Positions 43,301 to 64,000 of a stretch of 64,000 nt of DNA are shown here, one piece after another. Where the stretch lies: assembly GCA_028284935.1 (NCBI GenBank), contig JANQQQ010000039.1, forward strand, positions 186,001 through 250,000. Reading direction: 5' to 3'. This DNA is from Croceivirga sp. (GTDB taxonomy: Bacteria > Bacteroidota > Bacteroidia > Flavobacteriales > Flavobacteriaceae). Under the pieces are notes generated by a model. The model saw nothing but the letters and a program-made list of their open reading frames with translations. It was not told the DNA's origin and did no database searches. The translations under genes and the position numbers were made by a program. How positions within the stretch are numbered: the first letter of the stretch is position 1; each line of letters opens with the position of its first letter.

Positions 43301-46004
43301 TGTTTTTATTGAGGTTACCGATTATAGCGGGGTTTACAATTATGAAGCCTTTTTGCTCGATGTCAATGGAAATCGTGTTCTTCCCGCACAGGCTACTGGA
43401 ACCTTTGATACCGCCAATTTCCCAGACGTGAATGGGGATGCCGCCCGTATTACTGGATTGATAGGTGGAAACTATGAAGTGGCCATAACTACTGCTGCCG
43501 ATCCCCAATGCCCGGGCGTTAGTAATGTAACCACAGTCCGTTCCCCGAACGGGCCATTGGTACCCACTGCTATTGAAATAGGTAACGTAAGTTGTAATGA
43601 TGATAGTGGGGTCATCGAGGCCAACTTAAATGGAGGATGGGATTACGCACCGTATGAATATAGATTGGTGTTTGATGGCGATAATGACGGAAATTATGAG
43701 ACCGAAGTCCAGACGTGGAGCAATACGAACCGATTTGAAAATTTGAACAGCGGGGACTATCAGGTTGAATTTAGGGATGTGGAAGGATGTTTGACGAGTT
43801 TTGACATTACCTTAAATGCTATTGATCCCATTCTTGCAGGTATTCGAGAACCCCAAGCCCTAGTTTGTCCGGATGGAAACAATGCCGTTTTGGAGGCCTA
43901 TGATCCCTCAACGGGCGATGCATCTACTGCCGTAGCCGGTGCAACCGGAGGAGTACCCGGAGCAGGATACATCTATCAGCTCATTTACTTGGGAAGCAAT
44001 AATATTGCGGATGAGCTTTCCAGAAGTGGTCTTCAAGATACACCCACCTTTACAGGCGCATCAGGTGGTTTTATTAGCCAAGGATGGTACGCCATTGAGG
44101 TTTCTTCCAGTTATGGTTGTGTTGGCGTTACGGTTCCTTATTATGTAGATCCGCCACCACCAATAATCCCGGATTTGGTTCAAGTTCAGGCCCCCGGTTG
44201 TGGAGGAATGGGTCAAATGCGACTGCAAATTGAAAACCCAGAAGTTGGTTTTGAGTATGAATATCGATTGGCGGATACCGCTGGGGGCAATCCCACCGAT
44301 CCCTTCATTCGAATGGAAGATGGATTTGGTAATCCTGCCACAGAGGTCATTATTGACGGGGTACAAGGGTTTTACCAGTATGAGGTGAGGAAAATCAACG
44401 CTACTAATACCTGTGGGACAATAAATTCCAACGGATTGACCTTGGTGGATGCCCAAAATATTGATTTGGTTGTAAATCAACCGGATGATATCTCTTGTGC
44501 CAATGAAATAGACGGACGTATTGAATCCTTTTCCTCGGGAGGTGTAGGTTCCAATACCTACACGCTTTATTTGGGGGATCCGGTTGATGCTTTCAATCCT
44601 GCTCCAACCGCAACTATGGTTGCTTCTAACAACTTTGGTACGTTTGAAGGATTGGATGATGCTACCGACTATTATATTGCGGTAACCAGTGGGGTAAGTT
44701 GTCAGGATATTGAAGGACCTTATGTGGTATCAAGACCTGAACCTATCATTTATAATGCTATTGGCACTCCCGTAAGTTGCAGTGGGGAAGAAGACGGTAC
44801 CATTACCATTGAGGTAACAGGTGGGGGAGTTGGCTTGGTACAATTTGCCATTGGCCCAAATTTCAATGAGTTTTTCAATGATCCAGCCACTCCAGGAATT
44901 TACACCTTCGAAGATTTGGCAGGAGCTGCCAACGGCCAGGACTACACTATTCTCATTCAGGATTCCGAAGGATGTTCAGAAACCGCTGTTGTACGGGTTT
45001 TTGAGCCTCAGCCCATTCAAATATCGTCCGTCGAAACACCGGAGATTTGTCTTGGTTTCGCGGATGGTACCGCACAGCTTGCGGTAACAGGTGGGACCCC
45101 TTTTGTAGATACCATGGGTACCAATTACTATGAAGTGGCCATCAATTCTTCGGATGATATCGATTTTGTTAGAAATGACAACTTATTCTTTGATAATTTG
45201 ATGGGTGGCGAAAGCTATGTGTTCTTTGTTCGGGATGCCAATGGATGCATGAATACTATAGTGGTTCCCATTGAAATAGGTGTGGATATCAATGCCGAAG
45301 CTATCGTTGAATACGGTTGTGAGGGAATCTTCCCCAACAGTACTACATCTATCGTTCCAATGAACTCCTCCTCACTTTCTGATGTCTTGGTTTCGTTGGA
45401 CGTTGATGATATCACTATCGCCACAGAACAACGACAATGGGCCGATTTACCCTCAGGAGATCACACGGCGTACCTATATCATCCTAACGGTTGTACCACT
45501 TTTGTTGAATTTACTATTGATCATTACGAACCGTTGAATGTAGAAGTGTTAAAAACCGGGCCTGATGAAGTAACGGCCACAGCTACCGGTGGTTTTGGGG
45601 ACTATGAGTATTTCTTTCAAGGAGAATCCCAAGGAAGCGACAATGTCTTCAATATTATATTTGATGCCACAATAATCGTAAGGGTGGTTGATGCGCAGGG
45701 CTGCTTTGTTGAGGTCGTATTCCCATTCAATTTTGAGGGCATGCCAGACTTTCCAAATTTCTTTACCCCGGATGGGGATGGCTTGAATGATGAATGGTTT
45801 CCACGGAATCGGGAATTCTTCCCCAATATCGATGTCATTATTTATGATCGCTATGGACGGGTAGTTGCAAGATTGGATCAAGTCAGGAAATGGGATGGTA
45901 ATTATGAAGGTAGTCCATTACCTACAGGGGATTATTGGTATGTAGTCAACGCCAATGACAATGAAAAACAACAATTTGTAGGACATTTTACCCTATATCG
46001 TTAG
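37389..46004 (+). CDS. Giant SprB-repeat adhesin with type IX (type B) sorting domain
   Basis: A 2871-residue secreted surface protein. A signal peptide (RRLLYFLLLVFTSAIVSSA) is followed by roughly 25 divergent SprB-type beta-sandwich repeats of about 80-110 residues. Each typically ends GxYxxxVxDxxGC, for example NLPAGTYTPAVRNASGC, GLVPGTYTVEVVDGNNC and MGGESYVFFVRDANGC. The last 85 or so residues (from NFFTPDGDGLNDEWFP through KWDGNYEGSPLPTGDYWYVV) are the gliding-motility-associated C-terminal domain that directs type IX export. SprB moves on the cell surface and drives gliding in F. johnsoniae. No SprF/PorP gene is adjacent. Confidence 0.95.
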   Translation: MPKSNTRRLLYFLLLVFTSAIVSSAVLNNDFKKIIADFGISKNKASDSENSSSVSLDTKKVNLTSVAMQPMFTTIIQGADEEVSCTNNGFTIARFNLCGDSDDRTITLAGSYSNVEWRIIDADCSFDTNQDCPEATTSCWNDPSNIVSSTATFNLDASSIPAGSGAEFRVVADGQQYFFKVKKSTITQTFVKRDYICGVDGRIQITNLSSAYEFSIDGGLNWQASPIFDGLAPGTYVVTARLQNTPNTCEYPYEPIVIEQLDIGIDVEFTDAQCFGDTGSIQVTVNDVPGPFRYTLLDEVGIPIEFTTFITTNPYTFSAVGFGTYSVQVETQQCTGDIANGIPPPQQSLDINGNPITIGDGIVPLSASTEVNESLSSEPGCGSSTVDIIVRTSGGTAPYTFTVSDGGNSGGSYTTQTVYNVSTAGTYDFTITDANGCLITASANVQELTPPDVTVTGIDGTCTNGGARLDITVVDAKGYNLSFRPTPADPWSTDPLLSVPAGTYNAIQVRYEQGGFSCFITLPDSITVTETGAINGADPIWVDLTCDGAGGVNDGSITFPGTYSGAGGGPYEFSINGTDFFTQQTFNNLPAGTYTPAVRNASGCRRDFTAITIANVDPPTDIDFVQSNTNCAANTSDVQLTPTANNPITLYEIISPITASNATGIFTGLTNNVNHVFRITDANNCIYEESFTPAVISSIRARVGSGGDLRVCTGATDGNATFLVDGFTNTYSYTVTPGGFSGTGETNLQVPITNLGANTYTITVTDDDTGCTDTASVTVEEPTTPLTLTPDVTDMSCANNNIGRVRANASGGFGAYRYELEWPTPPGITQGPKSGRTFGNLTAEGTYTLTVTDAEGCTASTTFSLSAVNPPTIALGAVDYCFGPGDDASIAVSSTAGTAAVGTHQYRINGGALQGSPTFNGLVPGTYTVEVVDGNNCTDQLQVIIPPQVQIDLDLVTEIPCGGNGAMEITVNGGDISTLATTSYTIYLDGIPVTGHIGLPLPSNPFNYTVPLGSDGDYTVEVTDNNGCTNTSPPLTFTPPVPISATADAVGPSCGDPNSGYVEIIPDVSSGTPAFEVIFAPLGTGLVDSPFDAAQPLGFTYGSQTIYSGLPSGDYEYIVKDARNCTTGVLQITVAADPTNPPDASVSPDPAVCLAGVVSGGITINSIADGRPNFIIIVEDIFGNEFFRQEDVALADLPLTINGLAEGNYNVITLDSRGCIDQDQVSITSTTVDIVPTTTLPLICDDAGFTYCVDIVGGTGPFGIRRIEDPSFTDLGGTPPTPNRSHCFANIQFGQSFTVEVIDYATNCTYQELITVPDGPSTVDVDLNVGGATCLGDLVTLDWTITGTTGATFFVEIQNLDTGAIVFTDATSTSTTGTLDVPEGAYAITVVDDGAGGTECSDGDTGNAILDYPRVDIIDNQNANCNELGQLTFRGSGGTPYAPGVLPNDSPYEYAVVPAGTPPGAGDYGVETTVALPGSLAPGTAYDIWVRDARGCEFQTSATVVQLDPDLPIPTIVVNNQCITGTPPASFQIDVTMPPNVDNPTFTLGGQTLVPAYDGINPTTATFSVPSIGIYDVYVIDANGCDIQTTAEVFQILSASADFSTEPSCNNTDGVITVTPNGGSGNFTFELRDGAGTPTGNTTGATSGVFTGIGPGDYEVFIRDDIANDGSVFCDFTVDGITLDAATPPVIADMGESDVSCNGLDDGSISVVLNTGSDIDGILEYRLYDSGNNQISSNISGSFPGLSPDTYRVEVETDRGCIDDQTVAINEPPVFEITATDETLVCENGTNRFSTATITATIVGANVGNGAPYGYRIDPSDSYQSSPSFDIVDNGTDQTITIYAIDANGCEDSVTITVFAPTDVLPSLTTLNDLTCANPERVEISVVGTSDFTVITSAPSGNTVANVSVTGGGTAVIELPVEGDYLFEVQDDSPSGCSYPLPRYTVDPPLYPYITVTEASPVLCYGDTNGSVFIEVTDYSGVYNYEAFLLDVNGNRVLPAQATGTFDTANFPDVNGDAARITGLIGGNYEVAITTAADPQCPGVSNVTTVRSPNGPLVPTAIEIGNVSCNDDSGVIEANLNGGWDYAPYEYRLVFDGDNDGNYETEVQTWSNTNRFENLNSGDYQVEFRDVEGCLTSFDITLNAIDPILAGIREPQALVCPDGNNAVLEAYDPSTGDASTAVAGATGGVPGAGYIYQLIYLGSNNIADELSRSGLQDTPTFTGASGGFISQGWYAIEVSSSYGCVGVTVPYYVDPPPPIIPDLVQVQAPGCGGMGQMRLQIENPEVGFEYEYRLADTAGGNPTDPFIRMEDGFGNPATEVIIDGVQGFYQYEVRKINATNTCGTINSNGLTLVDAQNIDLVVNQPDDISCANEIDGRIESFSSGGVGSNTYTLYLGDPVDAFNPAPTATMVASNNFGTFEGLDDATDYYIAVTSGVSCQDIEGPYVVSRPEPIIYNAIGTPVSCSGEEDGTITIEVTGGGVGLVQFAIGPNFNEFFNDPATPGIYTFEDLAGAANGQDYTILIQDSEGCSETAVVRVFEPQPIQISSVETPEICLGFADGTAQLAVTGGTPFVDTMGTNYYEVAINSSDDIDFVRNDNLFFDNLMGGESYVFFVRDANGCMNTIVVPIEIGVDINAEAIVEYGCEGIFPNSTTSIVPMNSSSLSDVLVSLDVDDITIATEQRQWADLPSGDHTAYLYHPNGCTTFVEFTIDHYEPLNVEVLKTGPDEVTATATGGFGDYEYFFQGESQGSDNVFNIIFDATIIVRVVDAQGCFVEVVFPFNFEGMPDFPNFFTPDGDGLNDEWFPRNREFFPNIDVIIYDRYGRVVARLDQVRKWDGNYEGSPLPTGDYWYVVNANDNEKQQFVGHFTLYR

Positions 46005-52759: not shown

Positions 52760-53353
52760 GTGAAAAATCATGCTAATCTTCGAAATAAGATTCTTGGTTA
52801 TACCCAAGTTGATGACGAAATATTGACTGGGGAGTTGGTACACTATGACCAAATAGAATTATCCAAAGGGGAAACCTTACTTACTCCAGGTAAAGTGGAA
52901 AATAGGTTCTATTATTTGGAAAAGGGCTGCGTTTGTTACTATAAAGAGCAGGAGGGTGAAATCAAAGTGTTGGAATTTTACACCGAGGACGTCTTTTTTA
53001 CCGATTTGCTCTCCTATGTCAATGAAGAAACTTCGAACTGCTATCTTAAGGCACTCGAGGAGACTATCGTATTTGCCGTAAACAAAAAAGTGGCTGAAAC
53101 CAGTTTTGAAAACTCCCATCAATTGGAACGTTTTGGCCGTCTGTCGATGCAGGAAGCTTTTATGAAACTATTTACTAGGGTGGAGCGAATGACACTTCGT
53201 AGCAACGAAGAACGCTACCTTAGGCTTTTGGAAAAACGACCCGAATTATTTCAACGGGTTCCCAATTATCTTATCGCGAGCTATTTGGGAATGACCCCTG
53301 TTGGTCTTTCAAAACTTCGAAAACGGCTGAGCGCAAATATTTCAGTGACCTGA
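52760..53353 (+). CDS. Crp/Fnr family transcriptional regulator
   Basis: A 197-residue regulator with a cyclic-nucleotide-binding-like N-terminal beta barrel (LSKGETLLTPGKVENRFYYLEKGCVCYY) and a C-terminal HTH (RVPNYLIASYLGMTPVGLSKLRKRL). There is no Fnr-type cysteine cluster. The start is GTG at 52760, the only good candidate. The effector is unknown; Bacteroidota Crp-like proteins of this size often act without cAMP. It converges on the BASS transporter gene, 12 bases apart at the stops. Confidence 0.88.
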   Translation: MKNHANLRNKILGYTQVDDEILTGELVHYDQIELSKGETLLTPGKVENRFYYLEKGCVCYYKEQEGEIKVLEFYTEDVFFTDLLSYVNEETSNCYLKALEETIVFAVNKKVAETSFENSHQLERFGRLSMQEAFMKLFTRVERMTLRSNEERYLRLLEKRPELFQRVPNYLIASYLGMTPVGLSKLRKRLSANISVT

Positions 53354-53364
53354 TTGTTTGGAAA

Positions 53365-54231
53365 TCAATCGGTTTCTTTTCGCCTTCCCAACACCCACAT
53401 CAAAATACCCCCGGTCACAAACATCCAAATGGAGTAAGCAGCAATGGGTATCCCCATTTCGGTATTCTTGAGAATGGTGGAAACAATGACAAAGGCCAAG
53501 GTGCCATTTTGTATACCGCTTTCAATGGTGATTGAAATGGTGCTCTTAAAGTCAAGTTTGAACAGTTTTGATGAAAGAAAACCAAGCCCCATGGTCGCCA
53601 AGTTGAGTAGTAAGGTTACCAGCCCCACTTCTTTTAAACCTCGAAGAATGGTTTCGGAGTTTGCCGCAATTACTGCGGCGAGCACAAGAATAAAAAGTAG
53701 GGCAGAGGCAGTTCTCATAGGCCTTTCCATTCGCTCGGTGAATTTCGGTTTGAACTTCTTAATTAACATTCCGATCGAAATGGGAATCACGGTGATGACC
53801 ATGACTTGAAGTATGGTATCCATGACGGGCAATTCAATGGTGAGATCCGTGGTGTTGCCAAAATAGTCCAGTGTTTCAGAGAGAATCAGGGGAATGGTCA
53901 AAATAGTAATAAAACTGGCAATCGCGGTTAAGGTAACGGAGAGTGCAATGTTTCCCTTACAGGTGTGCGTGATCAAATTACTGGTAGGGCCACCAGGGGA
54001 GACGGCCAAAACCATTAAACCCATGGCCATAAGCGGTTCCAATTTAAAAGTCAGGGTAATTAAAAATGCAATTAAGGGCAGCAGCACCAGCTGGTTGGTA
54101 AGACCCAAAAGGACCGATTTAGGATAAATGATAATTCGTTTAAAATCGGCAGGAATCAGGGTCATACCCATGCCAAACATGATAATGGCAAGGGAAAGGG
54201 GAAGAAATACAGTGCTCAACAGTTCGGCCAT
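53365..54231 (-). CDS. Bile acid:sodium symporter family (BASS) transporter
   Basis: A 288-residue membrane protein with 9-10 helices of the BASS/SBF family. It begins TVFLPLSLAIIMFGMGMTL and has the family motif LMVLAVSPGGPTSNLITHTCKGNIALSVTLTA in helix 4 and GIQNGTLAFVI near the C-terminus, both part of the Na+ and substrate site. Bacterial members carry organic anions such as pantoate or steroids; the substrate here is unknown. Divergent from the acyl-CoA catabolic operon. Confidence 0.92.
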   Translation of the reverse strand: MAELLSTVFLPLSLAIIMFGMGMTLIPADFKRIIIYPKSVLLGLTNQLVLLPLIAFLITLTFKLEPLMAMGLMVLAVSPGGPTSNLITHTCKGNIALSVTLTAIASFITILTIPLILSETLDYFGNTTDLTIELPVMDTILQVMVITVIPISIGMLIKKFKPKFTERMERPMRTASALLFILVLAAVIAANSETILRGLKEVGLVTLLLNLATMGLGFLSSKLFKLDFKSTISITIESGIQNGTLAFVIVSTILKNTEMGIPIAAYSIWMFVTGGILMWVLGRRKETD

Positions 54232-54394: not shown

Positions 54395-56206
54395 ATGCCC
54401 AATGAATATGTTGATATAGAGACCTTGAAGTTCTTACTCTTCCAAGTTCAAAATGTTAAGGAAGTACTTGATCAAGAACGATTTTCAGAGTATGATGAAG
54501 AAGCCATCGAAATGTTTGTGGATTCGGTAAAAGATTTCGCCGACAAAGAAATGTTTCCTTTTTTCAAGGAAATGGACGAACATCCGGCGCATTTCAAGGA
54601 TGGGGAGATTATAGTGCACCCTCAGATCAACAAATACATGAAACAGGCCGGTGAAATGGGCTTCGTTGGGGCACCGTTTGATTATGAAATTGGTGGATTG
54701 CAAATGCCCTCAATGGCCGTGAACGCCTCAGCCTTTATTCAGGAGGCGGCAAATAACCACATGCCCGGATATGCGGGGCTTACCCTAGGAGCGGCAGAAC
54801 TCATTATTCATTTTGCCAATCAACACTTGAATGAGACCTATGTTCCAAAAATGATTTCCGGGGATTGGGGAGGTACCATGTGTTTGACAGAACCCCAAGC
54901 GGGAAGTTCGCTTTCTGATATTGTTACCACGGCCACCCCAGATGGCGATGCGTACAAAATTCACGGTCAAAAAATATTCATTTCCGGAGGTGATTATACA
55001 GGAGCCGAAAATATTGTTCACTTGGTATTGGCTCGAATTAAAGGTGCTCCTGCGGGAACCAAAGGAATTTCGCTGTTTGTCGTTCCTAAGAATAGACCTA
55101 AATCCGACGGTTCTTTGGAATCTAATGACGTAACCACTGTTGCCGACTTTCAAAAAATGGGTCAAAAAGGCTATTGTACCACCCATCTCTTCTTTGGTGA
55201 TAAAGAAAATTGCACGGGTTGGTTGGTCGGTGAGCCGCACCAAGGTTTACGATACATGTTCTTGATGATGAACGGGGCCCGTATTGCAGTGGGTCGCGGT
55301 GCCGCGGCCATTGCCACGGCGGCGTATCACGCGTCGTTAAATTATGCCCATGAACGTCCTCAAGGGCGCGAATTACAAAGCTCCGGCAAAAAGGATGCTT
55401 CAACGGAACAAACGCTTATTGTCAACCATCCTGATGTTCGCAGAATGCTCTTGCTACAAAAGGCGGTATCTGAAGGATCTTTGAGTCTGATTTTCCTTTG
55501 TTCAAAATATCACGACCTGTCCATTTCAGCTGCCGACGCGGAAGCGCGTGAAAGGAATAACTTGTTGTTGGAAATTCTCACTCCGGTTGTTAAAACCTAT
55601 CCTGCTGAAATGGGCGTTACCTCGGTCAATAATGGCGTTCAAGTTCTCGGTGGGTATGGCTTTTGTTCCGATTATATCTTGCAACAGTATCTCAGGGATA
55701 TTCGAATTTCTGCTATTTATGAAGGTACTACGGGGATTCAATCACAGGATTTATTGGGAAGGAAGGTCACCATGGAAAATGGCAAGGCTTTGATGTTTTT
55801 ATCCGAAGAAATCCAGCGTTCCATCACAGGTGCAATGGCCTATGAATCCCTTGTTCCTTATACTAAAAAATTGGGAGCAAAATTGGAATTGACCCAGCAG
55901 GTTTTACAATCGTTAATGGGGTATGCCATGCAAGGCGATTACCAGCGGTTTCTAGCGGATGCCACACCCTTTATGGAATTTTTCAGCACTATTGTGGTCG
56001 CTTGGCAATGGCTGGTTATCGGTACTAACGCACAACAGGCTCTGGTGATGGGTTCAAAACAGTATTCTGACGAATTCTATGAAAGTAAGCTCCACACCAT
56101 GAAGTTTTACTTCAAATATGAGCTTCCGAAAACACAGGGATTGTCGGAAATTTTGATGGACAAGGAGGCCTTGACTTTAAATACGGATAAAAAGATCTTT
56201 GCTTAG
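54395..56206 (+). CDS. Acyl-CoA dehydrogenase with C-terminal extension
   Basis: A 603-residue flavoenzyme that makes trans-2-enoyl-CoA. Motifs: MCLTEPQAGSSLSDIVTTA and FISGGDYTGAENIVHLVLARI; the catalytic Glu lies in IYEGTTGIQSQDLLGRK. A C-terminal domain of about 130 residues beyond the core is the type found in DmdC/FadE5-like enzymes, compared with about 380 aa for short-chain types. First gene of a long plus-strand operon, it stops one base before the next ATG. The substrate is unknown; medium-chain or modified acyl-CoAs are likely. Confidence 0.93.
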   Translation: MPNEYVDIETLKFLLFQVQNVKEVLDQERFSEYDEEAIEMFVDSVKDFADKEMFPFFKEMDEHPAHFKDGEIIVHPQINKYMKQAGEMGFVGAPFDYEIGGLQMPSMAVNASAFIQEAANNHMPGYAGLTLGAAELIIHFANQHLNETYVPKMISGDWGGTMCLTEPQAGSSLSDIVTTATPDGDAYKIHGQKIFISGGDYTGAENIVHLVLARIKGAPAGTKGISLFVVPKNRPKSDGSLESNDVTTVADFQKMGQKGYCTTHLFFGDKENCTGWLVGEPHQGLRYMFLMMNGARIAVGRGAAAIATAAYHASLNYAHERPQGRELQSSGKKDASTEQTLIVNHPDVRRMLLLQKAVSEGSLSLIFLCSKYHDLSISAADAEARERNNLLLEILTPVVKTYPAEMGVTSVNNGVQVLGGYGFCSDYILQQYLRDIRISAIYEGTTGIQSQDLLGRKVTMENGKALMFLSEEIQRSITGAMAYESLVPYTKKLGAKLELTQQVLQSLMGYAMQGDYQRFLADATPFMEFFSTIVVAWQWLVIGTNAQQALVMGSKQYSDEFYESKLHTMKFYFKYELPKTQGLSEILMDKEALTLNTDKKIFA

Positions 56207-56980
56207 ATGAGTGAGATAAAATCAAAATTTGACCTTACTGGCAAAGTTGCCATTGTAACAGGCTCCAGCAAGGGAATTGGTCGATCCATTGCCCAAGGTC
56301 TCGCAGAACATGGCGCTAAGGTTATCGTTAGTAGTCGAAAGCAAATAGCTGTTGACAAGGTAGTCGAAGCATTTAGGGCACAAGGTTTGGAGGCTACAGG
56401 TATTGCCTGTCATATTGGTGATGCAGACCAGCGAAAAAATCTTATTGAGCAAACCATAACTGCCTACGGCAGATTGGATATTTTGGTAAACAATGCCGCC
56501 ATTAACCCCTATTATGGGCCCTTGGAGGCCGCTGGAGAAGAGGTATTTGACAAGATTATGGACGTAAATGTAAAAGCTCCGTGGTTATTGTCGAATTTGG
56601 CGCAGCCCCATATGAAACAGGAAGGCGGTAGTATTATCAATATTTCTTCCGTGGAAGGTGTACATCCCGGTTTTCGGTTGGGACTGTACAGCATGACCAA
56701 AGCAGCATTGATCATGTTGACCAAAAACCAAGCCAAGGAATGGGGAAAATATGGCATTCGTTCCAATGTGGTATGTCCTGGGTTGATCAAAACAAAATTC
56801 AGTGAGGCCTTGTGGACTGACGAAAAAACCTTGGGCATGTACACCAATACCCTGCCTTTAAAGCGGATGGCCGAGCCTGATGAAATGGCTGGATTGGTGA
56901 TGCTTTTAGCTTCCGATGCAGGGTCATACATGACGGGAGGCATATATATTGCAGATGGAGGGTATTTGATTTCTGGATAA
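56207..56980 (+). CDS. Short-chain dehydrogenase/reductase (SDR)
   Basis: A 257-residue NAD(P)-dependent oxidoreductase of the classical SDR type. The cofactor loop TGSSKGIG is near residue 18, then [14 protein letters not shown]. The catalytic tetrad includes the Ser of INISSVEG and the YSMTK motif, and a C-terminal [14 protein letters not shown] follows. In this operon it could oxidise a 3-hydroxyacyl-CoA or reduce a 4-oxoacyl-CoA, as LvaD does in the levulinate pathway; sequence alone does not decide. It begins directly after the dehydrogenase stop. Confidence 0.92.
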
Positions 56981-56990
56981 TAGACACGAT

Positions 56991-58205
56991 ATGAATTTTG
57001 AATACAGTGAAAGGTCGTTACAGCTTCAAAAGGAACTGAACCAGTTTATTTCCGAACACATTGAACCGGTAGAGGAAGAAGTTTATGACTTTCACGCCAA
57101 TCCCACAAATGTTTGGAAACGATGGCCAGGTACTAATGACTTGAAACAAAAAGCAAAGGAACAGGGGTTGTGGAACCTGTTTTTGCCAAAGTCCTACAAA
57201 GCATTTAGTCCTGGATTGAGTAATCTGGAATATGCCCCTTTAGCGGAACAAATGGGACGAATCCTCTGGTCTTCAGAAATCTTTAATTGTAGCGCCCCTG
57301 ATACCGGAAATATGGAGGTGCTTGCCAAATACGGCTCTAAGGAACAACAGGACAAATGGTTAAGACCCTTGCTTGAAGGGGAAATCCGCTCTGCTTTTTT
57401 GATGACTGAGCCCGCAGTGGCCTCATCCGATGCTACCAATATTGAAACCTCCATCAAAGCCGATGGAGAGGAGTATGTCATTAATGGAAGAAAGTGGTGG
57501 TCCTCAGGGGCTATGGATCCCAATTGTAAAATCGCCATTGTGATGGGGAAGACCGATTTTAAGGCTCCAAGGCACAAACAGCAGAGCATGATTTTGGTGC
57601 CTATGGACACCCCCGGTCTTGAAATCATACGGTCACTCACCGTTTTCGGATATACGGACTCGCCCGAAGGCCATGCCGAAGTGCAGTTGAACGATGTGCG
57701 TGTGCCAAAATCCAATCTTATTTTGGGAGAGGGTAGGGGTTTTGAAATAGCGCAGGGTCGCTTGGGACCTGGACGTATCCACCATTGCATGCGATTGATT
57801 GGCATGGCACAGAGCGCTTTGGAAATTATGGCTAAGCGAACCGTTCAGCGGAAACCTTTTGGACGCACATTGGATACCTACAGTAGTGTTCGTCAAGCCA
57901 TTGCCAAATCTGCATGTGATATAGAACAGACCAGGTTACTGGTGTTGTCTGCTGCGGATAAAATGGATACCGTTGGAAACAAAGAAGCCAAGGATTTGAT
58001 TGCCATGATTAAAATTAGTGCCCCGAATATGGCCTTACGGGTCATTGATAGGGCCATTCAGGTTTTGGGCGGAAAAGGGGTTGGCAATGATACCCCATTG
58101 GCCCATTTCTTTGCGGCAGCGCGTATGCTTCGCCTTGCGGATGGACCGGATGAGGTGCATATGAGTCAGTTGGGCAAAAGCATCATAAAAAGGTATACAA
58201 AATAG
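56991..58205 (+). CDS. ACAD10/11-type acyl-CoA dehydrogenase homologue
   Basis: A 404-residue member of the acyl-CoA dehydrogenase superfamily. The ACAD10/11-like box is [15 protein letters not shown] (near residue 135). C-terminally the usual catalytic YEGT is replaced by ADGPDEVH at about residues 382-389, as in ACAD10/11 and LvaC-type proteins. Those enzymes eliminate phosphate from a 4-phosphoacyl-CoA using FAD chemistry, instead of simple dehydrogenation. The next gene, 3 bases on, is the matching kinase. This gene pair is the strongest pathway clue in the operon. Confidence 0.9.
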
Positions 58206-58208
58206 GTT

Positions 58209-59288
58209 ATGGCTTTTAACAACCCTATAAGAGCTGTGCGACAGGGCGAGGAGCTGTCCGCCCAAAAATTAAAGGAATTTTTGATCAAGAATGATTTAAT
58301 TGTTTCGACAGCTAGTGAACTGGTTGCCCATCAATTCTCAAATGGCTACTCCAACCTTACGTATTTGCTTCAAATTGAGCATCGGGAGTATGTGCTTCGC
58401 CGCCCACCTTTCAATGCCCCCAAGCGAGGCCATGATATGGGTCGTGAGTATAAGGTGCTAAAGCATTTGAATCCTGTTTTTGATAAAACCCCTAAGGTTT
58501 TTGTCTATACTGAGGATGAAACGATTATAGGCGCTCCTTTTTATCTTATGGAAAAAGTGGATGGCGAGATTTTATCTGCTAAGGCCGCATTCAAAAGGCA
58601 AATACCCCCAGATGAATTTAAGACGATTTCCAATACATGGCTCGATACGTTTGTGGCCTTTCATGAAATCGATTATAAAGCGGTAGGTTTGTCTAATTTA
58701 GGCAAGCCTGACGGGTATGTGAACCGCCAAGTTTTGAATTGGGGAAAACAATACCTCGCTGCGGCTACTGATGACGTTCCAGAAGCGGAAAAGGTGATGC
58801 AGTGGATGGACATCAATCAACCCAAACGGTATGACCACAGTTTGATTCACAATGACTTCAAATATGACAATGTTGTTTTTTCAGGAAGTGATTGGAAAAA
58901 CATATCAGCCATATTGGACTGGGAGATGTGCACCCTTGGTGACCCCTTAATGGATTTAGGAACTTCCTTGGGCTATTGGACCACAAACGATGATGCAGAA
59001 TTCATGAAACAAGGCTTGCCTTCACCTACTGTGATGAAAGGCAATCCCACCCGAACGGAAATCGTACATCAGTATGCTTTAAAAAGTGGTCGGTCCATAG
59101 ACCATTTGGTGTTCTACTATGCCTATGGTCTTTTCAAAATAGCGGTAATAGCCCAACAGATTTACTATCGCTACAAACATGGACACACCAGTGACCCAAA
59201 ATTCGCAAACCTCAATAGGGCAGCGGGATTGTGTTGCAAAACAGCCTGGAGGGCTATTCAAAAAAAACAAATTGACAACTTGAACTAA
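58209..59288 (+). CDS. APH-fold phosphotransferase, ACAD10/11 N-domain / LvaA type
   Basis: A 359-residue kinase of the aminoglycoside-phosphotransferase fold. The catalytic loop HNDFKYDN (H214, D216, N221) and the metal-binding ILDWE (D237) are intact, and HQFSNGYSNLTYLLQ forms the nucleotide-binding start. This subfamily is fused to ACAD in human ACAD10/11 and separate in bacteria. LvaA, a family member, phosphorylates 4-hydroxyvaleryl-CoA. It lies 3 bases after the ACAD10/11-like gene and directly before the DUF1330 gene. An antibiotic-resistance role is unlikely in this context. Confidence 0.9.
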   Translation: MAFNNPIRAVRQGEELSAQKLKEFLIKNDLIVSTASELVAHQFSNGYSNLTYLLQIEHREYVLRRPPFNAPKRGHDMGREYKVLKHLNPVFDKTPKVFVYTEDETIIGAPFYLMEKVDGEILSAKAAFKRQIPPDEFKTISNTWLDTFVAFHEIDYKAVGLSNLGKPDGYVNRQVLNWGKQYLAAATDDVPEAEKVMQWMDINQPKRYDHSLIHNDFKYDNVVFSGSDWKNISAILDWEMCTLGDPLMDLGTSLGYWTTNDDAEFMKQGLPSPTVMKGNPTRTEIVHQYALKSGRSIDHLVFYYAYGLFKIAVIAQQIYYRYKHGHTSDPKFANLNRAAGLCCKTAWRAIQKKQIDNLN

Positions 59289-59678
59289 ATGGAATCCTAC
59301 CTAAGAGTAAACCCTGAAGTTTTTCTGAATTTCAAAGATGCGACCGATGATGAACCGGTGATCATGTTGAATCTTTTGAGGTATAAAGAACGGGTGGAGG
59401 AGACCGGCGAAACGGGTAAGGAAGGATATAGTATCTATTTGAAGGCCGCTACGCCTTTTCTGGAAAGAGCAGAAGCCACGGTTTTGTTCTTTGGTGTCCC
59501 CAAGCATATGTTGATCGGTCCAGTTGATGAAGCCCTTTGGGACGCGGTCATTGTGGTCAGGTACAATTCATTTGCGCACTTTATGGGTATGGTAAAGGCG
59601 GAGGGATACCCATCCTACCTTAGGGAAAGGGCATTGGAAGATTCAAGATTAATTCATTGCAAATCCATCAATAAATGA
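59289..59678 (+). CDS. DUF1330 domain protein
   Basis: A 129-residue ferredoxin-like (dimeric alpha/beta barrel) protein: PVIMLNLLRYKERVEETG, YSIYLKAATPFLERAEATVLFFG and the C-terminal VVRYNSFAHFMGMVKAEGYPSYLRERALEDS. DUF1330 proteins have no firm function. The start immediately follows the kinase stop, and its end overlaps the next gene by 4 bases, so its synthesis is tied to the kinase. In the Lva pathway a small protein (LvaB, a different family) is needed for kinase activity; this may be an analogue (inference). Confidence 0.88.
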   Translation: MESYLRVNPEVFLNFKDATDDEPVIMLNLLRYKERVEETGETGKEGYSIYLKAATPFLERAEATVLFFGVPKHMLIGPVDEALWDAVIVVRYNSFAHFMGMVKAEGYPSYLRERALEDSRLIHCKSINK

Positions 59679-60433
59679 ACCTAAAAGATAAAATAGTCAT
59701 CATTACGGGAGCGGGAAGTGGAATTGGAAGGGCCACGGCGAAATTATTTGGAAGCTATGGCGCCCATGTGATTGTTTCCGATATCAATAAGGAAGATGCC
59801 CAAAGCGTTGCTGAGGAAATTTTATTGGATGATGGGAAGGCTGTAGCCCAAAAAACGGATGTTACCGATTTCAATGCGGTCAAAGATTTGGTGTATGGGA
59901 CTTATGAGAAATACAAAAACATTGATATAATGGTCAATAATGCGGGTATTGGCGGTAAGAACCAGGCCAAAACCGCGGATCATACGTTGGACGATTGGCA
60001 CGATGTCATAGCCGTCAACCAAACAGGGGTGTTTTACTGTATGAAACTGGTTTTGGGCATCATGTCAAAACAAGGTCACGGCAATATTATCAATGTAGCC
60101 TCACTGGCAGGCTTAAAACCTTCGGGGAATAATCTGTCCTATTCGGCAAGCAAGTTTGCCGTTGTGGGCATGACCAAATCAGCGGCACTGGAATACGGCC
60201 GAAGAAACATACGGATCAACGCGGTCTGTCCTGGTTTTACGGAGTCGGCCTTATTGGATCAGTTGTTGGCGGTGAGCCCTGAGATGGGGGATAAATTAAA
60301 GCGATTCATACCTATGGGTCGTTTTGGTAAGGCTGATGAAATTGCCGAAGCCATTTGTTGGCTGTCTTCGGACAGTTCAAAGTTCATTACCGGACAGCCC
60401 ATTATTCTTGATGGAGGAAATTCATTGATTTAA
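59675..60433 (+). CDS. Short-chain dehydrogenase/reductase (SDR)
   Basis: A 252-residue classical SDR: TGAGSGIGRATAK near residue 12, NNAGIGG, the catalytic YSASK, and the C-terminal FITGQPIILDGGNSLI. The Asp in IVSDINKED after beta-2 suggests NAD preference, which suits an oxidative step such as 3-hydroxyacyl-CoA dehydrogenation. It overlaps DUF1330 by 4 bases (ATGA) and is followed 1 base later by the enoyl-CoA isomerase gene. Confidence 0.92.
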   Translation: MNLKDKIVIITGAGSGIGRATAKLFGSYGAHVIVSDINKEDAQSVAEEILLDDGKAVAQKTDVTDFNAVKDLVYGTYEKYKNIDIMVNNAGIGGKNQAKTADHTLDDWHDVIAVNQTGVFYCMKLVLGIMSKQGHGNIINVASLAGLKPSGNNLSYSASKFAVVGMTKSAALEYGRRNIRINAVCPGFTESALLDQLLAVSPEMGDKLKRFIPMGRFGKADEIAEAICWLSSDSSKFITGQPIILDGGNSLI

Positions 60434-60434
60434 G

Positions 60435-61211
60435 ATGTGTATGAATACAATACAATTAATTAAAAAGGAGGGATATACCATTGTTCAGTTGGACCGTGGG
60501 AAGGTGAATGCCATCAACTTGGAAATGGTCCACGAATTAAGGGAGGTGTTCCATAGCCTGTCTAAAGGTGATGATGTAAAAGGGGTTATCCTTACGGGAA
60601 AGCCACATTTTTTCTCAGCGGGTTTGGATTTAGTGGAACTCATTCAATACGATAAACCTAAAATGGACGATTTCTTTACGGCTTTCGGAAGCCTGTACAC
60701 GGAAATGCTTCAATTCAAAAAGCCCCTTATTGCCGCAATTACCGGTCATTCCCCGGCAGGGGGTTGTGTTTTGGCGGTGACCTGTGACAATAGGTATATG
60801 GCGGAAGGGGAAAAGTATGTGATTGGGTTGAACGAGGTGGCTGTCAATGTCCAAATCAGTCAAGATCTCACAGCATGTTACGCCTATTGGTTGGGTGATG
60901 GTTTGGCCCATCGCTATGTTTTGGAGGGAAAATTGTTGAAGGGACCCGAGGCCCTTTCCTGTGGATTGGTAGATGAACTTCTTCCATTGGAAGAGGTTTT
61001 ACCACGTGCTGAGAAGCAAATGCTACATTATTTAAGGGCGGATCAAGAAATCCTTGTCAACACCAAAGCCAAACTACGAAAATCGCTTTTGGAAAAGTTG
61101 GAAGCCAATCCGGAAAACGCGATGAATCAAGCGGCCGAATTATGGTGGAAGCCTGAAATACGAGGAAAAATGAAGGCCTACGTGGCCAGTTTTACGAACA
61201 AGAAAAAATAG
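60435..61211 (+). CDS. Enoyl-CoA hydratase/isomerase family, delta3-delta2-enoyl-CoA isomerase-like
   Basis: A 258-residue crotonase. The oxyanion hole strand and helix read HFFSAGLDLVEL and AAITGHSPAGGCVLAVTCDNRYM. The segment YVIGLNEV has E134 at the position of the catalytic Glu of mitochondrial delta3-delta2-enoyl-CoA isomerase (ECI1: YCIGLNE). The second hydratase Glu is missing: the segment around PAGG has no Glu. I therefore favour an isomerase over a hydratase. An alternative ATG lies 6 bases downstream. It would convert 3-enoyl-CoA to 2-enoyl-CoA. Confidence 0.88.
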   Translation: MCMNTIQLIKKEGYTIVQLDRGKVNAINLEMVHELREVFHSLSKGDDVKGVILTGKPHFFSAGLDLVELIQYDKPKMDDFFTAFGSLYTEMLQFKKPLIAAITGHSPAGGCVLAVTCDNRYMAEGEKYVIGLNEVAVNVQISQDLTACYAYWLGDGLAHRYVLEGKLLKGPEALSCGLVDELLPLEEVLPRAEKQMLHYLRADQEILVNTKAKLRKSLLEKLEANPENAMNQAAELWWKPEIRGKMKAYVASFTNKKK

Positions 61212-61222
61212 AACTGAAGAAA

Positions 61223-62227
61223 ATGAACAAACAATTACTATTTGTAAAAAGACCCGTTGGGGAAGCGGGTGCAGATACTTGGAACCTCATGTCCCATCCC
61301 ATTCCTGAACCTAAGGACGGCGAGGTATTGATTAAACAGCATTATATATCATTGGACCCAGCGATGCGGGGTTGGATGAACGATTCCAAATCCTACATTG
61401 AACCCATGGCCATAGGTTCGGTAATGCGGGCAGGTTCGGTGGGGGAGGTCGTTAAATCCAACAACCATCCTAAATTTAAGGTAGGTGATTTTGTTTCGGG
61501 GAACGGTGGGGTGCAGCAGTATGTAGCGACGGATGGCAAGGGGTACTATCCCGTTGACCCAAATTTGGCACCGCTGCCAACCTACATCGGTACCTTAGGA
61601 ATGCCAGGAATGACGGCTTATTTTGGTATTCTTGAGGTGGGAAAAATTAAGGAAGGCGATGTGGTCTTGGTTTCTGGAGCTGCTGGTGCGGTGGGCAGTG
61701 TCGTTGGTCAAATTGCGAAAATTAAAGGGTGTACCGTGGTTGGAATTGCCGGCGGTACTGATAAGTGCACCTACATTAAAGATGAACTCTGTTTTGATGG
61801 CGCCATTGACTACAAAAATGAGAAGGTACGCGACCGACTCAAGGAACTATGTCCTAAGGGTATTGATGTGTATTTCGATAATGTAGGCGGCGAAATCCTG
61901 GATACAGCATTGACACGACTTCGTATGCATGCCCGAATTGTCATCTGCGGGGCCATTTCCCAGTACAACAATAAAATGGCAATCAAAGGCCCAAGCAATT
62001 ACCTTTCCCTTTTGGTCAATAGAGCTACGATGCAGGGCATGGTCGTTTTTGATTGGGCAAAACGCTATGGCGAAGGCGCCCAACAGATGGGCATGTGGAT
62101 GGCACAGGGAAAATTAAAAAGTAAGGAAGATGTGTACGAAGGCATTGAAAATTTCCCAGAAACCTATAGCCGACTTTTTAGTGGGGACAAAATGGGGAAG
62201 TTGGTGCTCAAAGTCTTAGAGGAATAG
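61223..62227 (+). CDS. NADP-dependent MDR oxidoreductase (prostaglandin reductase/CurA type)
   Basis: A 334-residue zinc-free medium-chain reductase. It starts KRPVGEAGADTWNLMSHPIPEPKDGEVLIKQHYISLDPAMRGWM, as in YncB/CurA and leukotriene B4 12-hydroxydehydrogenase. The NADPH motif is VSGAAGAVGSVVGQIAKIKG, and VYFDNVGGEILDTAL follows. These enzymes reduce the C=C of alpha,beta-unsaturated ketones and aldehydes. In this operon it may clear enones or oxidised lipid intermediates. Confidence 0.9.
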   Translation: MNKQLLFVKRPVGEAGADTWNLMSHPIPEPKDGEVLIKQHYISLDPAMRGWMNDSKSYIEPMAIGSVMRAGSVGEVVKSNNHPKFKVGDFVSGNGGVQQYVATDGKGYYPVDPNLAPLPTYIGTLGMPGMTAYFGILEVGKIKEGDVVLVSGAAGAVGSVVGQIAKIKGCTVVGIAGGTDKCTYIKDELCFDGAIDYKNEKVRDRLKELCPKGIDVYFDNVGGEILDTALTRLRMHARIVICGAISQYNNKMAIKGPSNYLSLLVNRATMQGMVVFDWAKRYGEGAQQMGMWMAQGKLKSKEDVYEGIENFPETYSRLFSGDKMGKLVLKVLEE

Positions 62228-62232
62228 GCACT

Positions 62233-63207
62233 ATGAAAGCAATTCGGTGTAAATCGTATGGCCCACCTTCCAATTTGGTTTTGGAGGATCTTGATGCTCT
62301 AAAAACGGGACCAAAACAGGTGGTGGTCGCTACGAAAGCATGTGGCCTCAACTTTCCGGACACCTTGATTATCCAAGGCTTATATCAATTCAAGCCGGAT
62401 TTGCCCTTTACACCGGGCAGTGACTTGGCCGGGATTGTAAAGGAAGTGGGCGAGGGGGTAAAGCATCTGGAAGTGGGACAGGAAGTATTCGGGTTCGTAC
62501 CTTACGGTGCCCTGGCAGAGGAGGTTTTGGTGCCGGCGAGTGCCTGTTTTCCAAAACCACCGCAAATGGATTTTGAGACGGCAGCCTCATTTTTAATGGC
62601 ATACGGTACGTCCTATCATGCACTGCATGACCGTGGTCAACTGAAGGAAGGGGAAACCCTTTTGGTACTTGGAGCGTCAGGAGGTGTTGGGCTGGCTGCG
62701 GTGGAATTAGGCAAATTAATGGGAGCTAGGGTAATTGCCGCAGCTTCAACGGATGGGAAATTAGAACTCTGTAAAGGTTACGGGGCGGACATCACAATAA
62801 ATTACAATGAGCAGGACCTAAAGACCACATTGAAGGAATTGACCAATGGCAAAGGAGTCGATGTTGTTTACGATCCCGTTGGTGGTCCTTATTCAGAACC
62901 TGCCTTGAGGGCCACGGCACGTTATGGACGATTTTTGGTTGTTGGATTTGCTGCGGGCGATATTCCAAAAATCCCCTTGAACCTGCCCTTGCTTAAAGAG
63001 GCCGAAGTTGTTGGGGTTTTCTGGGGTAGCTTCGCCATGAAAGAACCTCAGGCCAATATGGCCAACAGCATGCAACTGATGAAATGGCATGCCGAGGGAA
63101 AGCTAAAACCCTATATCCATAAAACATATGAACTACAGGAAACTGCTGTAGCTCTGGAGGAAATGATACAACGCAAGGTTATGGGAAAACTGGTGGTAAC
63201 CATTTAA
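62233..63207 (+). CDS. NADPH:quinone oxidoreductase family protein (MDR)
   Basis: A 324-residue zinc-free MDR enzyme of the quinone oxidoreductase (QOR) family: CGLNFPDTLIIQGLYQFKPDLPFTPGSD, cofactor loop LGASGGVGLAAVELGKLMGARVIAAAS, and DVVYDPVGGPYSEPALRA. Members reduce quinones or enoyl/enone substrates; some act as enoyl-thioester reductases. It begins 5 bases after the CurA-like gene. The two MDR genes are distant paralogues with different N-termini. Confidence 0.9.
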   Translation: MKAIRCKSYGPPSNLVLEDLDALKTGPKQVVVATKACGLNFPDTLIIQGLYQFKPDLPFTPGSDLAGIVKEVGEGVKHLEVGQEVFGFVPYGALAEEVLVPASACFPKPPQMDFETAASFLMAYGTSYHALHDRGQLKEGETLLVLGASGGVGLAAVELGKLMGARVIAAASTDGKLELCKGYGADITINYNEQDLKTTLKELTNGKGVDVVYDPVGGPYSEPALRATARYGRFLVVGFAAGDIPKIPLNLPLLKEAEVVGVFWGSFAMKEPQANMANSMQLMKWHAEGKLKPYIHKTYELQETAVALEEMIQRKVMGKLVVTI

Positions 63208-63216
63208 AACTAGTAT

Positions 63217-63954
63217 ATGAGACTCAACGATAAAGTAGCTATAGTCACTGGGGGTTCACGTGGCATTGGACAAGCGATATCCGAATTATTTGCAAAAGAA
63301 GGAGCCGCCGTAATCATCATTGATTTACTTCCGCAAGGAGAAGCTGTTGCCAAAGGAATCAATTTAAACGGGGGAAAAGCCGAATTCCACTCAGTATCGG
63401 TGACGGACAAGGCGGCCATAGAAGCTTTGTTTGAAAAGATTAACTCGGAACATGGGAAAATAGACATCCTGATTAATAATGCTGGAATCACGCGTGACCG
63501 CACCTTGGAAAAAATGAGCGAAGACGAATGGGATGCGGTCATAGAGGTAAATTTAAAAGGGGTCTTTATTTGCACCCAAGCAGTTGCCCCTTACATGAAA
63601 GCCAACAAATATGGGCGCATCGTTAGTGCGGCATCCAATGTTGGACTGCGCGGTAATTTTGGTCAAACCAACTACGCCGCAACAAAAGCGGGGGTCATCG
63701 CCATGAGCAAAACATGGACCATGGAATTAGGTAAGTATGGCATCACCGCAAATGCTATTGCTCCCGGGTTCACCATGACAGATATGGTCAAAAAAATACC
63801 TGAGGAGCATTTTGCTGCGATTAAAGCAAGTATTCCCCTCAAAACTGTGGCCCAACCTATGGATATCGCTTACGGGTATTTATACCTGGCGTCTGATGAA
63901 GCTCGATTTGTTTCAGGGATTTGTCTAACCATTGATGGGGGAACTTCAAGATAA
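63217..63954 (+). CDS. SDR, 3-oxoacyl-ACP/CoA reductase (FabG/PhaB-like)
   Basis: A 245-residue SDR with TGGSRGIGQAISELF at the N-terminus, NNAGITRDRTLEKMSEDEWDAVIEVNLKGVF, the catalytic Ser in VSAASNVG, YAATK, and the C-terminal RFVSGICLTIDGGTSR. The NNAGITRD element is typical of FabG/PhaB reductases. With a separate FAS cluster not in view, a role on CoA thioesters in this operon is likely. It is the third SDR of the operon. Confidence 0.92.
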   Translation: MRLNDKVAIVTGGSRGIGQAISELFAKEGAAVIIIDLLPQGEAVAKGINLNGGKAEFHSVSVTDKAAIEALFEKINSEHGKIDILINNAGITRDRTLEKMSEDEWDAVIEVNLKGVFICTQAVAPYMKANKYGRIVSAASNVGLRGNFGQTNYAATKAGVIAMSKTWTMELGKYGITANAIAPGFTMTDMVKKIPEEHFAAIKASIPLKTVAQPMDIAYGYLYLASDEARFVSGICLTIDGGTSR

Positions 63955-63959
63955 TCGGT

Positions 63960-64000
63960 ATGTCAAAATTGGAATTGGAAAATTTATCGGCCTTGCAAAC
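63960..64000 (+). CDS. Start of the next operon gene (truncated by window edge)
   Basis: An ATG at 63960, 5 bases past the previous stop, opens a frame reading MSKLELENLSALQ before the window ends. The spacing matches the rest of the operon. The few residues would suit the start of a MaoC-like hydratase, but 13 residues are not enough to call it. Confidence 0.5.
   Translation, partial: MSKLELENLSALQ

Follow-up and report, generated by a model that had tools for sequence, protein, structure and literature searches.

A candidate operon for 4-oxo- and 4-hydroxyacyl-CoA breakdown in Croceivirga, with split-gene counterparts of ACAD11 and a DHRS4/IBR1-like reductase

The marine flavobacterium Croceivirga sp. 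carries, in a 64,000-nucleotide stretch that we call the window (GenBank assembly GCA_028284935.1, contig JANQQQ010000039.1, positions 186,001 to 250,000 of the forward strand), a plus-strand gene cluster in which a putatively phosphate-eliminating acyl-CoA dehydrogenase (ACAD) homologue of the ACAD10/11 and LvaC type (56991-58205, 404 aa) is followed by an APH-fold kinase, the proposed 4-hydroxyacyl-CoA kinase (58209-59288, 359 aa; Pfam APH, 5e-44), and preceded by a DHRS4/IBR1-like short-chain dehydrogenase/reductase (SDR), the proposed 4-oxoacyl-CoA reductase (SDR1, 56207-56980). We take the cluster to be a beta-oxidation operon for acids that end as 4-oxo- or 4-hydroxyacyl-CoA, with ACAD and kinase as a split-gene counterpart of mammalian ACAD11 and SDR1 as their third partner, and give this reading a probability of roughly 0.78. 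An initial annotation of part of the cluster had proposed a kinase-dependent module for 4-hydroxyacyl-CoAs; it is partly supported: its core holds, and its details are wrong or unproved. The source genome measures 4.23 Mb and is given as 99.99% complete.

The ACAD homologue lies inside the ACAD11 clade, apart from true dehydrogenases. Its best PDB matches are human ACAD11 (2wbi, 6e-137) and mouse ACAD11 (8v3u, 3e-136), then 4hr3 (5e-127), and the next ACAD comes only at 1.4e-40, a two-step fall in match strength. A quick maximum likelihood tree groups the ACAD10/11-type proteins and human and mouse ACAD11 against six canonical ACADs (SH-like approximate likelihood ratio test, SH-aLRT, 100); it was built on 43 of the 87 collected rows, LvaC and ACAD10 not being among them, and several outgroup branches drew a warning from the tool for their length. 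ADGPDEVH occupies the place of the canonical YEGT, and this motif, like the intact HNDFKYDN and ILDWE of the adjoining APH-fold kinase, was confirmed where the initial annotation had placed it. In mouse ACAD11 the phosphate is held by R626, H634 and R637 and the acyl-CoA is oriented by R631, with D753 acting as the base; elimination suffers most from non-conservative changes at the three phosphate residues, and in part from a change of H597 (PMC12440821). The window counterparts of R626, R631, H634, R637, D753 and H597 are R257, R262, H265, R268, D384 and H228. Across the window protein and 80 homologues (at least 34% identity in the best segment, lower ones omitted), the counterparts of R626, R631, H634 and R637 are invariant (81/81 rows), that of D753 is Asp in 80 of 81 (a gap in one truncated row), and that of H597 is present in 80, with a gap in the other. 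The catalytic Asp stands where canonical ACADs have Glu, and a canonical Cetobacterium ACAD aligned alongside keeps only R631, which is common to all ACADs, together with the usual EGT. With its place in the ACAD11 clade and all the probed pocket residues present, the earlier assignment of this protein to the ACAD10/11 kind stands.

The phosphate pocket is also kept, by alignment, in the divergent ACADs of loci L061, L072 and L097, and in those of L101, L103 and L106. L061 and L072 have the same kinase and SDR1 with an ACAD of 37-39% identity that reads YDGADEVH, apparently another ACAD lineage partnered with this kinase.

The kinase shares 33.2% identity with the mouse ACAD11 kinase domain over 295 aligned residues, and when that domain is the query the window kinase is the sole match in this genome. 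Residues R79, E80, R173, H214, D216, N221, D237 and E239 are kept in 94 of 95 rows, with a gap in the other. D216, N221 and R173 correspond to the mouse catalytic D220 and N225 and the CoA-side R176, and D237 is the second Asp of the LDWE motif. The mouse kinase chain is numbered one lower than the paper; after this shift R86 of PMC12440821 falls on no Arg, and window R79 aligns with an Arg beside the alphaC Glu. By the kinase, the nearest relatives are from Croceivirga, Maribacter and Allomuricauda, in a search that may exclude the source genome itself and its closest kin. In a quick, midpoint-rooted tree of 37 of the 98 collected kinase rows, built without an outgroup, the deepest split (SH-aLRT 99) separates two subfamilies. 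On one side are mouse ACAD11, 3dxp, Haloferax and seven proteobacterial copies found beside SDR1 matches; on the other are the window and Bacteroidota rows, 9o56, and copies from Deinococcus, Cytobacillus, Streptomyces, Azospirillum, Pseudoalteromonas and Ideonella. The tested mouse kinase appears to be a cousin, not a sister, of the window kinase. The PDB entries 3dxp (titled putative acyl-CoA dehydrogenase) and 9o56 (aminoglycoside phosphotransferase) both align with the kinase over most of their own length, and their titles may mislead.

The two genes occur together. A single even draw from the Bacteroidota was searched (247 genomes of 122 genera, each at least 90% complete; E at most 1e-70 for the ACAD, 1e-30 for the kinase and 1e-60 for SDR1). 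The ACAD was found in 18 genomes and the kinase in the same 18, from 11 of the 122 genera, so that the module is a patchy trait present in about 7% of the drawn genomes. Fewer than 300 bases separate the pair in 12 of these genomes and about 2 kb in four (G003, G008, G050, G058). SDR1 was found in 16 genomes, 15 of them among these 18; of the 15 with all three genes, 12 have SDR1 adjoining the ACAD. Such overlap would arise by chance with probabilities of about 1e-27 (ACAD and kinase) and 3e-20 (SDR1) if genomes were independent, or about 7e-16 and 5e-12 counted by genus, values that are too small since the genomes are related. One genome, G155, has an SDR1-type gene (G155:C2:277716-278465) without the kinase-ACAD pair.

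Conserved gene order points the same way. The best 80 of 435 confirmed kinase relatives gave 80 Bacteroidota loci, which were compared with the window genes at identity cut-offs set gene by gene (at least 50% for SDR1). Within 3 kb of the kinase, the ACAD is present in 55 and SDR1 in 53 of the 62 loci reaching 3 kb upstream, and SDR1 lies at most 600 bases from the ACAD in 57 of the 65 ACAD-bearing loci. Among the 67 loci reaching 3 kb downstream, the genes that follow the kinase in the window are found within the same distance less evenly (SDR2 48, CurA-like 44, isomerase 38, DUF1330-like 37). The initial annotation had cast the downstream SDR (SDR2) as the reductase; that gene was confirmed at 59675-60433, and the strongly linked SDR is instead the upstream, DHRS4-like SDR1.

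Among SDRs of known structure, SDR1 appears closest to DHRS4, and the match is reciprocal within the genome. Its top three PDB matches are DHRS4 chains (220, 214 and 177 bits; the next reaches 159), and a pig DHRS4 segment searched against this genome finds SDR1 first of 27 matches (218 vs 136 bits). DHRS4 reportedly acts on aromatic carbonyls, steroids and bile acids (PMC10288848). From this chemistry and the linkage we infer that SDR1 would reduce a 4-oxo group, and it is probably a partner of the ACAD-kinase pair.

Outside Bacteroidota, the neighbourhood of SDR1 was followed in the 13 best distinct genera of a plasmid search, counting ACADs of this type (at least 50% identity) and kinases within about 8 kb. 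Of the 13 genera, 8 have the ACAD near SDR1 and 8 the kinase; 6 have both and 10 at least one of the two. A control search with SDR3 gave 0 of 5 for both ACAD and kinase among five loci hand-chosen from 25 listed matches, one of which had a canonical ACAD (26%). The order is phosphatase, kinase, SDR1, ACAD in Azoarcus and Caballeronia, ACAD, SDR1, kinase in Bosea, and ACAD, kinase, SDR1 in Novosphingobium. The linkage of SDR1 thus spans both kinase subfamilies. Eight plasmid loci, of which that of Azospirillum also counts among the 13 genera, were fetched for kinase or ACAD matches, hand-chosen for spread. Among these the SDR is clearly SDR1-like only in Azospirillum (47%); the SDRs of L092, L094 and L097 have SDR1 as best match at 33-35%, barely above SDR2 or SDR3, and L098 lists neither SDR nor kinase. 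In the Moraxella locus (L105:7995-10903) an SDR1-type gene stands without the pair, and its neighbour is a FadE-type ACAD with a MaoC-like match.

Phosphatases are recurrent neighbours. Of the 8 plasmid loci obtained through kinase or ACAD matches, 5 have a histidine phosphatase next to the kinase, as do 12 of the 80 Bacteroidota loci. Across phyla, the loci with this neighbour include L092, L093, L095, L096, L099, L101, L103 and L106. A HAD hydrolase adjoins the Haloferax ACAD (L097:6876-7598), and ACAD10 itself carries a HAD domain (PMC11342911). Phosphatase folds seem to have been recruited repeatedly next to the kinase, perhaps removing stray phosphoacyl-CoA. The phosphatase-bearing clusters of the Deinococcus, Streptomyces, Azospirillum, Pseudoalteromonas and Ideonella plasmids share with the window the ACAD type and the side of the kinase tree; unlike them, the window operon has no histidine phosphatase.

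The cluster comprises up to 13 genes, all on the plus strand. It starts at 54395 and extends beyond the window end (64000), with intergenic gaps of -4 to 11 bases from the first gene to SDR3. The initial annotation, which covered 56991-61211, therefore caught the middle of a real cluster in a range that was too short and left out SDR1. The first gene encodes a FadE-type ACAD with a PF12806 C-terminal domain and a normal YEGT (54395-56206), separated from SDR1 by a gap of 0 bases. After SDR1, the ACAD10/11-type gene and the kinase come a DUF1330-like protein of alpha/beta-barrel type (59289-59678; weak Pfam match, predicted fold), SDR2 (59675-60433), which is FabG- or (3R)-hydroxyacyl-CoA dehydrogenase-like (the second PDB match, 2et6, is an enzyme of the latter name), and a crotonase (60435-61211). 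Two enone-reductase-like genes, which had been claimed and are indeed present at 61223-63207, follow downstream of the annotated range. The first (61223-62227) resembles CurA, prostaglandin reductases and NADPH-dependent double-bond reductases (NF058644, 381 bits, below the 440-bit cut-off), with prostaglandin reductases 1 and 2 and 2-alkenal reductases among its PDB relatives, and the second (62233-63207) is a quinone-oxidoreductase-like medium-chain dehydrogenase/reductase (TIGR02824, 237 bits, below the cut-off). SDR3 (63217-63954), a FabG/PhaB-like 3-ketoacyl reductase or 3-hydroxyacyl dehydrogenase, precedes a MaoC-type hydratase with only its first bases in the window (63960-64000; whole gene L006:960-1424). 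After an 83-base gap, and outside the window, come an AMP-binding acyl-CoA synthetase of 605 aa with PF23562 (L006:1508-3325) and a DUF4442 protein (L006:3329-3799). This content is largely kept in related Flavobacteriaceae.

Upstream, a Crp/cNMP-binding-type protein (52760-53353, plus strand; Pfam cNMP_binding, 7e-10) is a candidate regulator of the operon: of the 58 Bacteroidota loci extending 6 kb upstream, 23 carry a homologue (at least 45% identity) no more than 6 kb from the kinase. A promoter scan gave no excess of sites (19, against 17.8 +/- 4.1 in shuffles) and a terminator scan a slight one (15, against 10.0 +/- 2.9), so the operon boundaries rest on spacing and synteny. Elsewhere in the window (37389-46004), a protein of 2871 aa carries SprB repeats and a type IX secretion signal (CHU_C) and appears to be a large surface or secreted adhesin-like protein.

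The crotonase is a probable delta3,delta2-enoyl-CoA isomerase of ECI1 type, as had been suggested. Its best PDB match is the mitochondrial 3,2-trans-enoyl-CoA isomerase 1xx4 (9e-32), and in alignment to 1xx4 it keeps the single catalytic Glu of IGLNE and has Val at the position of the first Glu of hydratases. The initial annotation had this enzyme correct a 3-enoyl product of the ACAD. Such a need was ruled out, since the tested relatives ACAD10 and ACAD11 already yield 2-enoyl-CoA (PMC12440821, PMC11342911). The isomerase was also rejected as a core partner for its loose co-occurrence: it was found in 10 of the 247 genomes, 5 of them within the 18 (chance 2e-4). The DUF1330-like protein was rejected likewise (9 genomes, 3 within the 18; chance 0.02). 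The DUF1330 label was the weakest of the earlier claims: 17 of 26 aligned members match PF07045 at E of at most 1 (best 8e-4), and the window protein itself stays under the curated cut-off of 23 bits (12.5 bits, E 0.2). Its predicted fold (predicted local distance difference test score, pLDDT, 89.8) matches 3hhl/3dca best, followed by 3lo3 and 2fiu, none with a known function, and weaker matches include 4-methylmuconolactone methylisomerase. The last of these would suit a lactone-handling role but proves nothing.

The following scheme would account for the gene content. The AMP-binding synthetase would activate the acid, and the FadE-type ACAD, the MaoC hydratase and the FabG-like SDRs would shorten the chain, while the isomerase would shift odd double bonds and the enone reductases clear conjugated ones, all roles suggested by the families. 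A carbonyl or hydroxyl arriving at C4 would then hinder beta-oxidation. SDR1 would reduce the 4-oxo to a 4-hydroxy group, the kinase would phosphorylate the 4-hydroxyl with ATP, as its tested relatives do, and the ACAD10/11-type protein, to judge from tested relatives and the conserved pocket, would eliminate the phosphate in a FAD-dependent, net redox-neutral step, giving a 2-enoyl-CoA that could rejoin beta-oxidation. Phosphorylation of the 4-hydroxyl and elimination are carried out by the tested ACAD10/11 relatives (PMC12440821, PMC11342911), and each part of ACAD10 is replaceable by a bacterial orthologue (PMC11342911).

As to substrates, oxidised or algal fatty acids are a guess. A hydroxyl on an even carbon arrives at C4 after rounds of beta-oxidation, and therefore, reasoning from known pathways, hydroxy acids such as ricinoleate would fit, with the isomerase serving their double bonds. 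Oleate hydratase (PF06100), which would supply 10-hydroxystearate, had no match in the genome.

Several observations weigh against this reading. The window kinase sits in another subfamily than the mouse ACAD11 kinase and 3dxp, and the substrate can therefore be carried over with less confidence to the kinase than to the ACAD; we know of no assay on its subfamily. The trees lack LvaA, LvaC and ACAD10 sequences. In G178 the ACAD and the kinase are separated by 7.7 kb, and in G190 they are on different contigs. SDR1 is missing at the cut-off used from 3 of the 18 genomes (G088, G049, G186) and lies on another contig than the ACAD in 3 of the 15 with all three genes (G178, G190, G146). Its linkage is partial outside Bacteroidota, where neither gene is near it in 3 of the 13 genera (Methylobacterium, Moraxella, Mesorhizobium), and the neighbouring SDRs of L093, L096 and L099 are of other types, with SDR2 or SDR3 as their best match. 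The stretch that was read showed no thiolase.

The same chemistry might instead be directed at a hydroxyl in a different position, or at acids other than fatty acids, for example terpenoid, sterol or aromatic side-chain acids. The kinase subfamily apart from mouse ACAD11 and the substrates reported for DHRS4, the relative of known structure nearest to SDR1, would suit this, as would the divergent gene adjoining the operon (53365-54231, minus strand), whose product belongs to the bile acid:sodium symporter family (Pfam SBF, 4e-33) and is possibly an acid importer. That gene is a doubtful member of the operon, with a homologue (at least 35% identity) in 9 of the 80 Bacteroidota loci, and the ACAD pocket residues are unchanged; we consider a different substrate of this kind unlikely, while allowing it a real chance. 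An SBF gene adjoins the module in the Pseudoalteromonas plasmid too (L096:4611-5477), 33% identical to that of the window.

A levulinate operon acting on 4-hydroxyvaleryl-CoA is improbable. Its model is the lva operon of Pseudomonas putida with LvaA and LvaC, reportedly described by Rand et al. in 2017, a study cited in PMC12440821 and PMC11342911. The two operons are alike in having the LvaA and LvaC enzyme types as separate kinase and ACAD genes, together with SDRs and an acyl-CoA synthetase. LvaB, which we take to belong to DUF2889 (PF11136), has no counterpart here: the family had no match in the genome, in a search that found it in 2 of 12 plasmid records and 0 of 14 control genomes, and the DUF2889-positive stretches of Azoarcus (16 kb read) and Cupriavidus (3.4 kb read) showed no adjoining kinase. 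The link to levulinate drawn by the initial annotation is accordingly not indicated. Unlike the lva operon, that of the window has FadE, isomerase, MaoC and enone-reductase genes, which with the 605-aa PF23562 synthetase suggest longer or unsaturated substrates, and its SDR1 is DHRS4-like, LvaA and LvaC being compared here by description and not by alignment. A true dehydrogenase beside an unrelated phosphotransferase, such as an aminoglycoside kinase, has only the domain names in its favour and is highly improbable given the ACAD11 clade position, the catalytic Asp in place of Glu with three additional phosphate-contact residues, and the shared 18 genomes, a linkage by which the kinase as an aminoglycoside resistance enzyme was ruled out.

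A 4-oxo/4-hydroxyacyl-CoA operon of the kind preferred here would differ from known systems in its make-up. Compared with mammalian ACAD11 and ACAD10, the two activities are expected to be alike, and the operon conserves both the ACAD residues that were probed in the mouse enzyme and the Asp/Asn pair of the kinase (PMC12440821, PMC11342911). Unlike there, the genes are separate, the ACAD precedes the kinase, no HAD domain is present and the pair lies among beta-oxidation genes; the difference in kinase subfamily is from mouse ACAD11, ACAD10 itself standing outside the comparison. Judged by sequence, the system appears to be a variant of the ACAD10/11-LvaA/LvaC kind with split genes, another kinase subfamily than mouse, no DUF2889 protein and a DHRS4-like third partner.

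Among plant proteins, IBR3 has an APH domain, IBR10 is isomerase-like and ECH2 is MaoC-like. In Arabidopsis, IBR1, IBR3, IBR10 and ECH2 function in indole-3-butyrate breakdown, IBR1 shares one pathway with the ACAD-like IBR3, and mutants of the four lack the seedling defect typical of fatty-acid oxidation mutants (PMC6616111, PMC8133310). A published phylogeny groups Arabidopsis SDRa/IBR1 with human DHRS4, and the functional mechanism of SDRa/IBR1 is there called still unknown, with carbonyl reduction possible (PMC10288848). The plant set, a DHRS4-like SDR, an ACAD-like protein and two predicted hydratases in one pathway, is matched in the operon by a DHRS4-group SDR, an ACAD, a crotonase and a MaoC hydratase (PMC6616111, PMC8133310, PMC10288848), a likeness by description. 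The plant set turns indole-3-butyrate into auxin, unlike the role proposed for the operon. The main texts of PMC12440821 and PMC11342911 contain none of the terms IBR3, Arabidopsis, DHRS4 and indole, and IBR3 and ACAD11 were found mentioned together only in a list of annotated yeast genes, in a literature search that mostly did not cover subscription papers.

The linkage of SDR1 to the kinase-ACAD pair, the grouping of IBR1 with DHRS4 and the pathway shared by IBR1 and IBR3 together suggest that the IBR1/DHRS4 enzymes serve 4-oxo/4-hydroxyacyl-CoA breakdown. A further step, possible and on balance doubtful, would make DHRS4 in animals and IBR1/SDRa in plants 4-oxoacyl-CoA reductases feeding ACAD11 and IBR3 respectively, and the plant set of IBR1, IBR3, IBR10 and ECH2 in essence a salvage route for 4-oxo/4-hydroxyacyl-CoAs, a functional unit inherited from bacteria; the operon might then be a Rosetta stone for eukaryotic peroxisomes. 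The mammalian ACAD10/11 kinase-ACAD route for 4-hydroxy acids was assigned only in 2024-2025 (PMC11342911, PMC12440821). A patchy, compact operon with a near-constant DHRS4-like SDR makes a concrete prediction for DHRS4 and plant SDRa/IBR1 and supplies bacterial proteins with which it could be tested, and in bacteria it would mark a bypass of the block to beta-oxidation set by a C4 hydroxyl.

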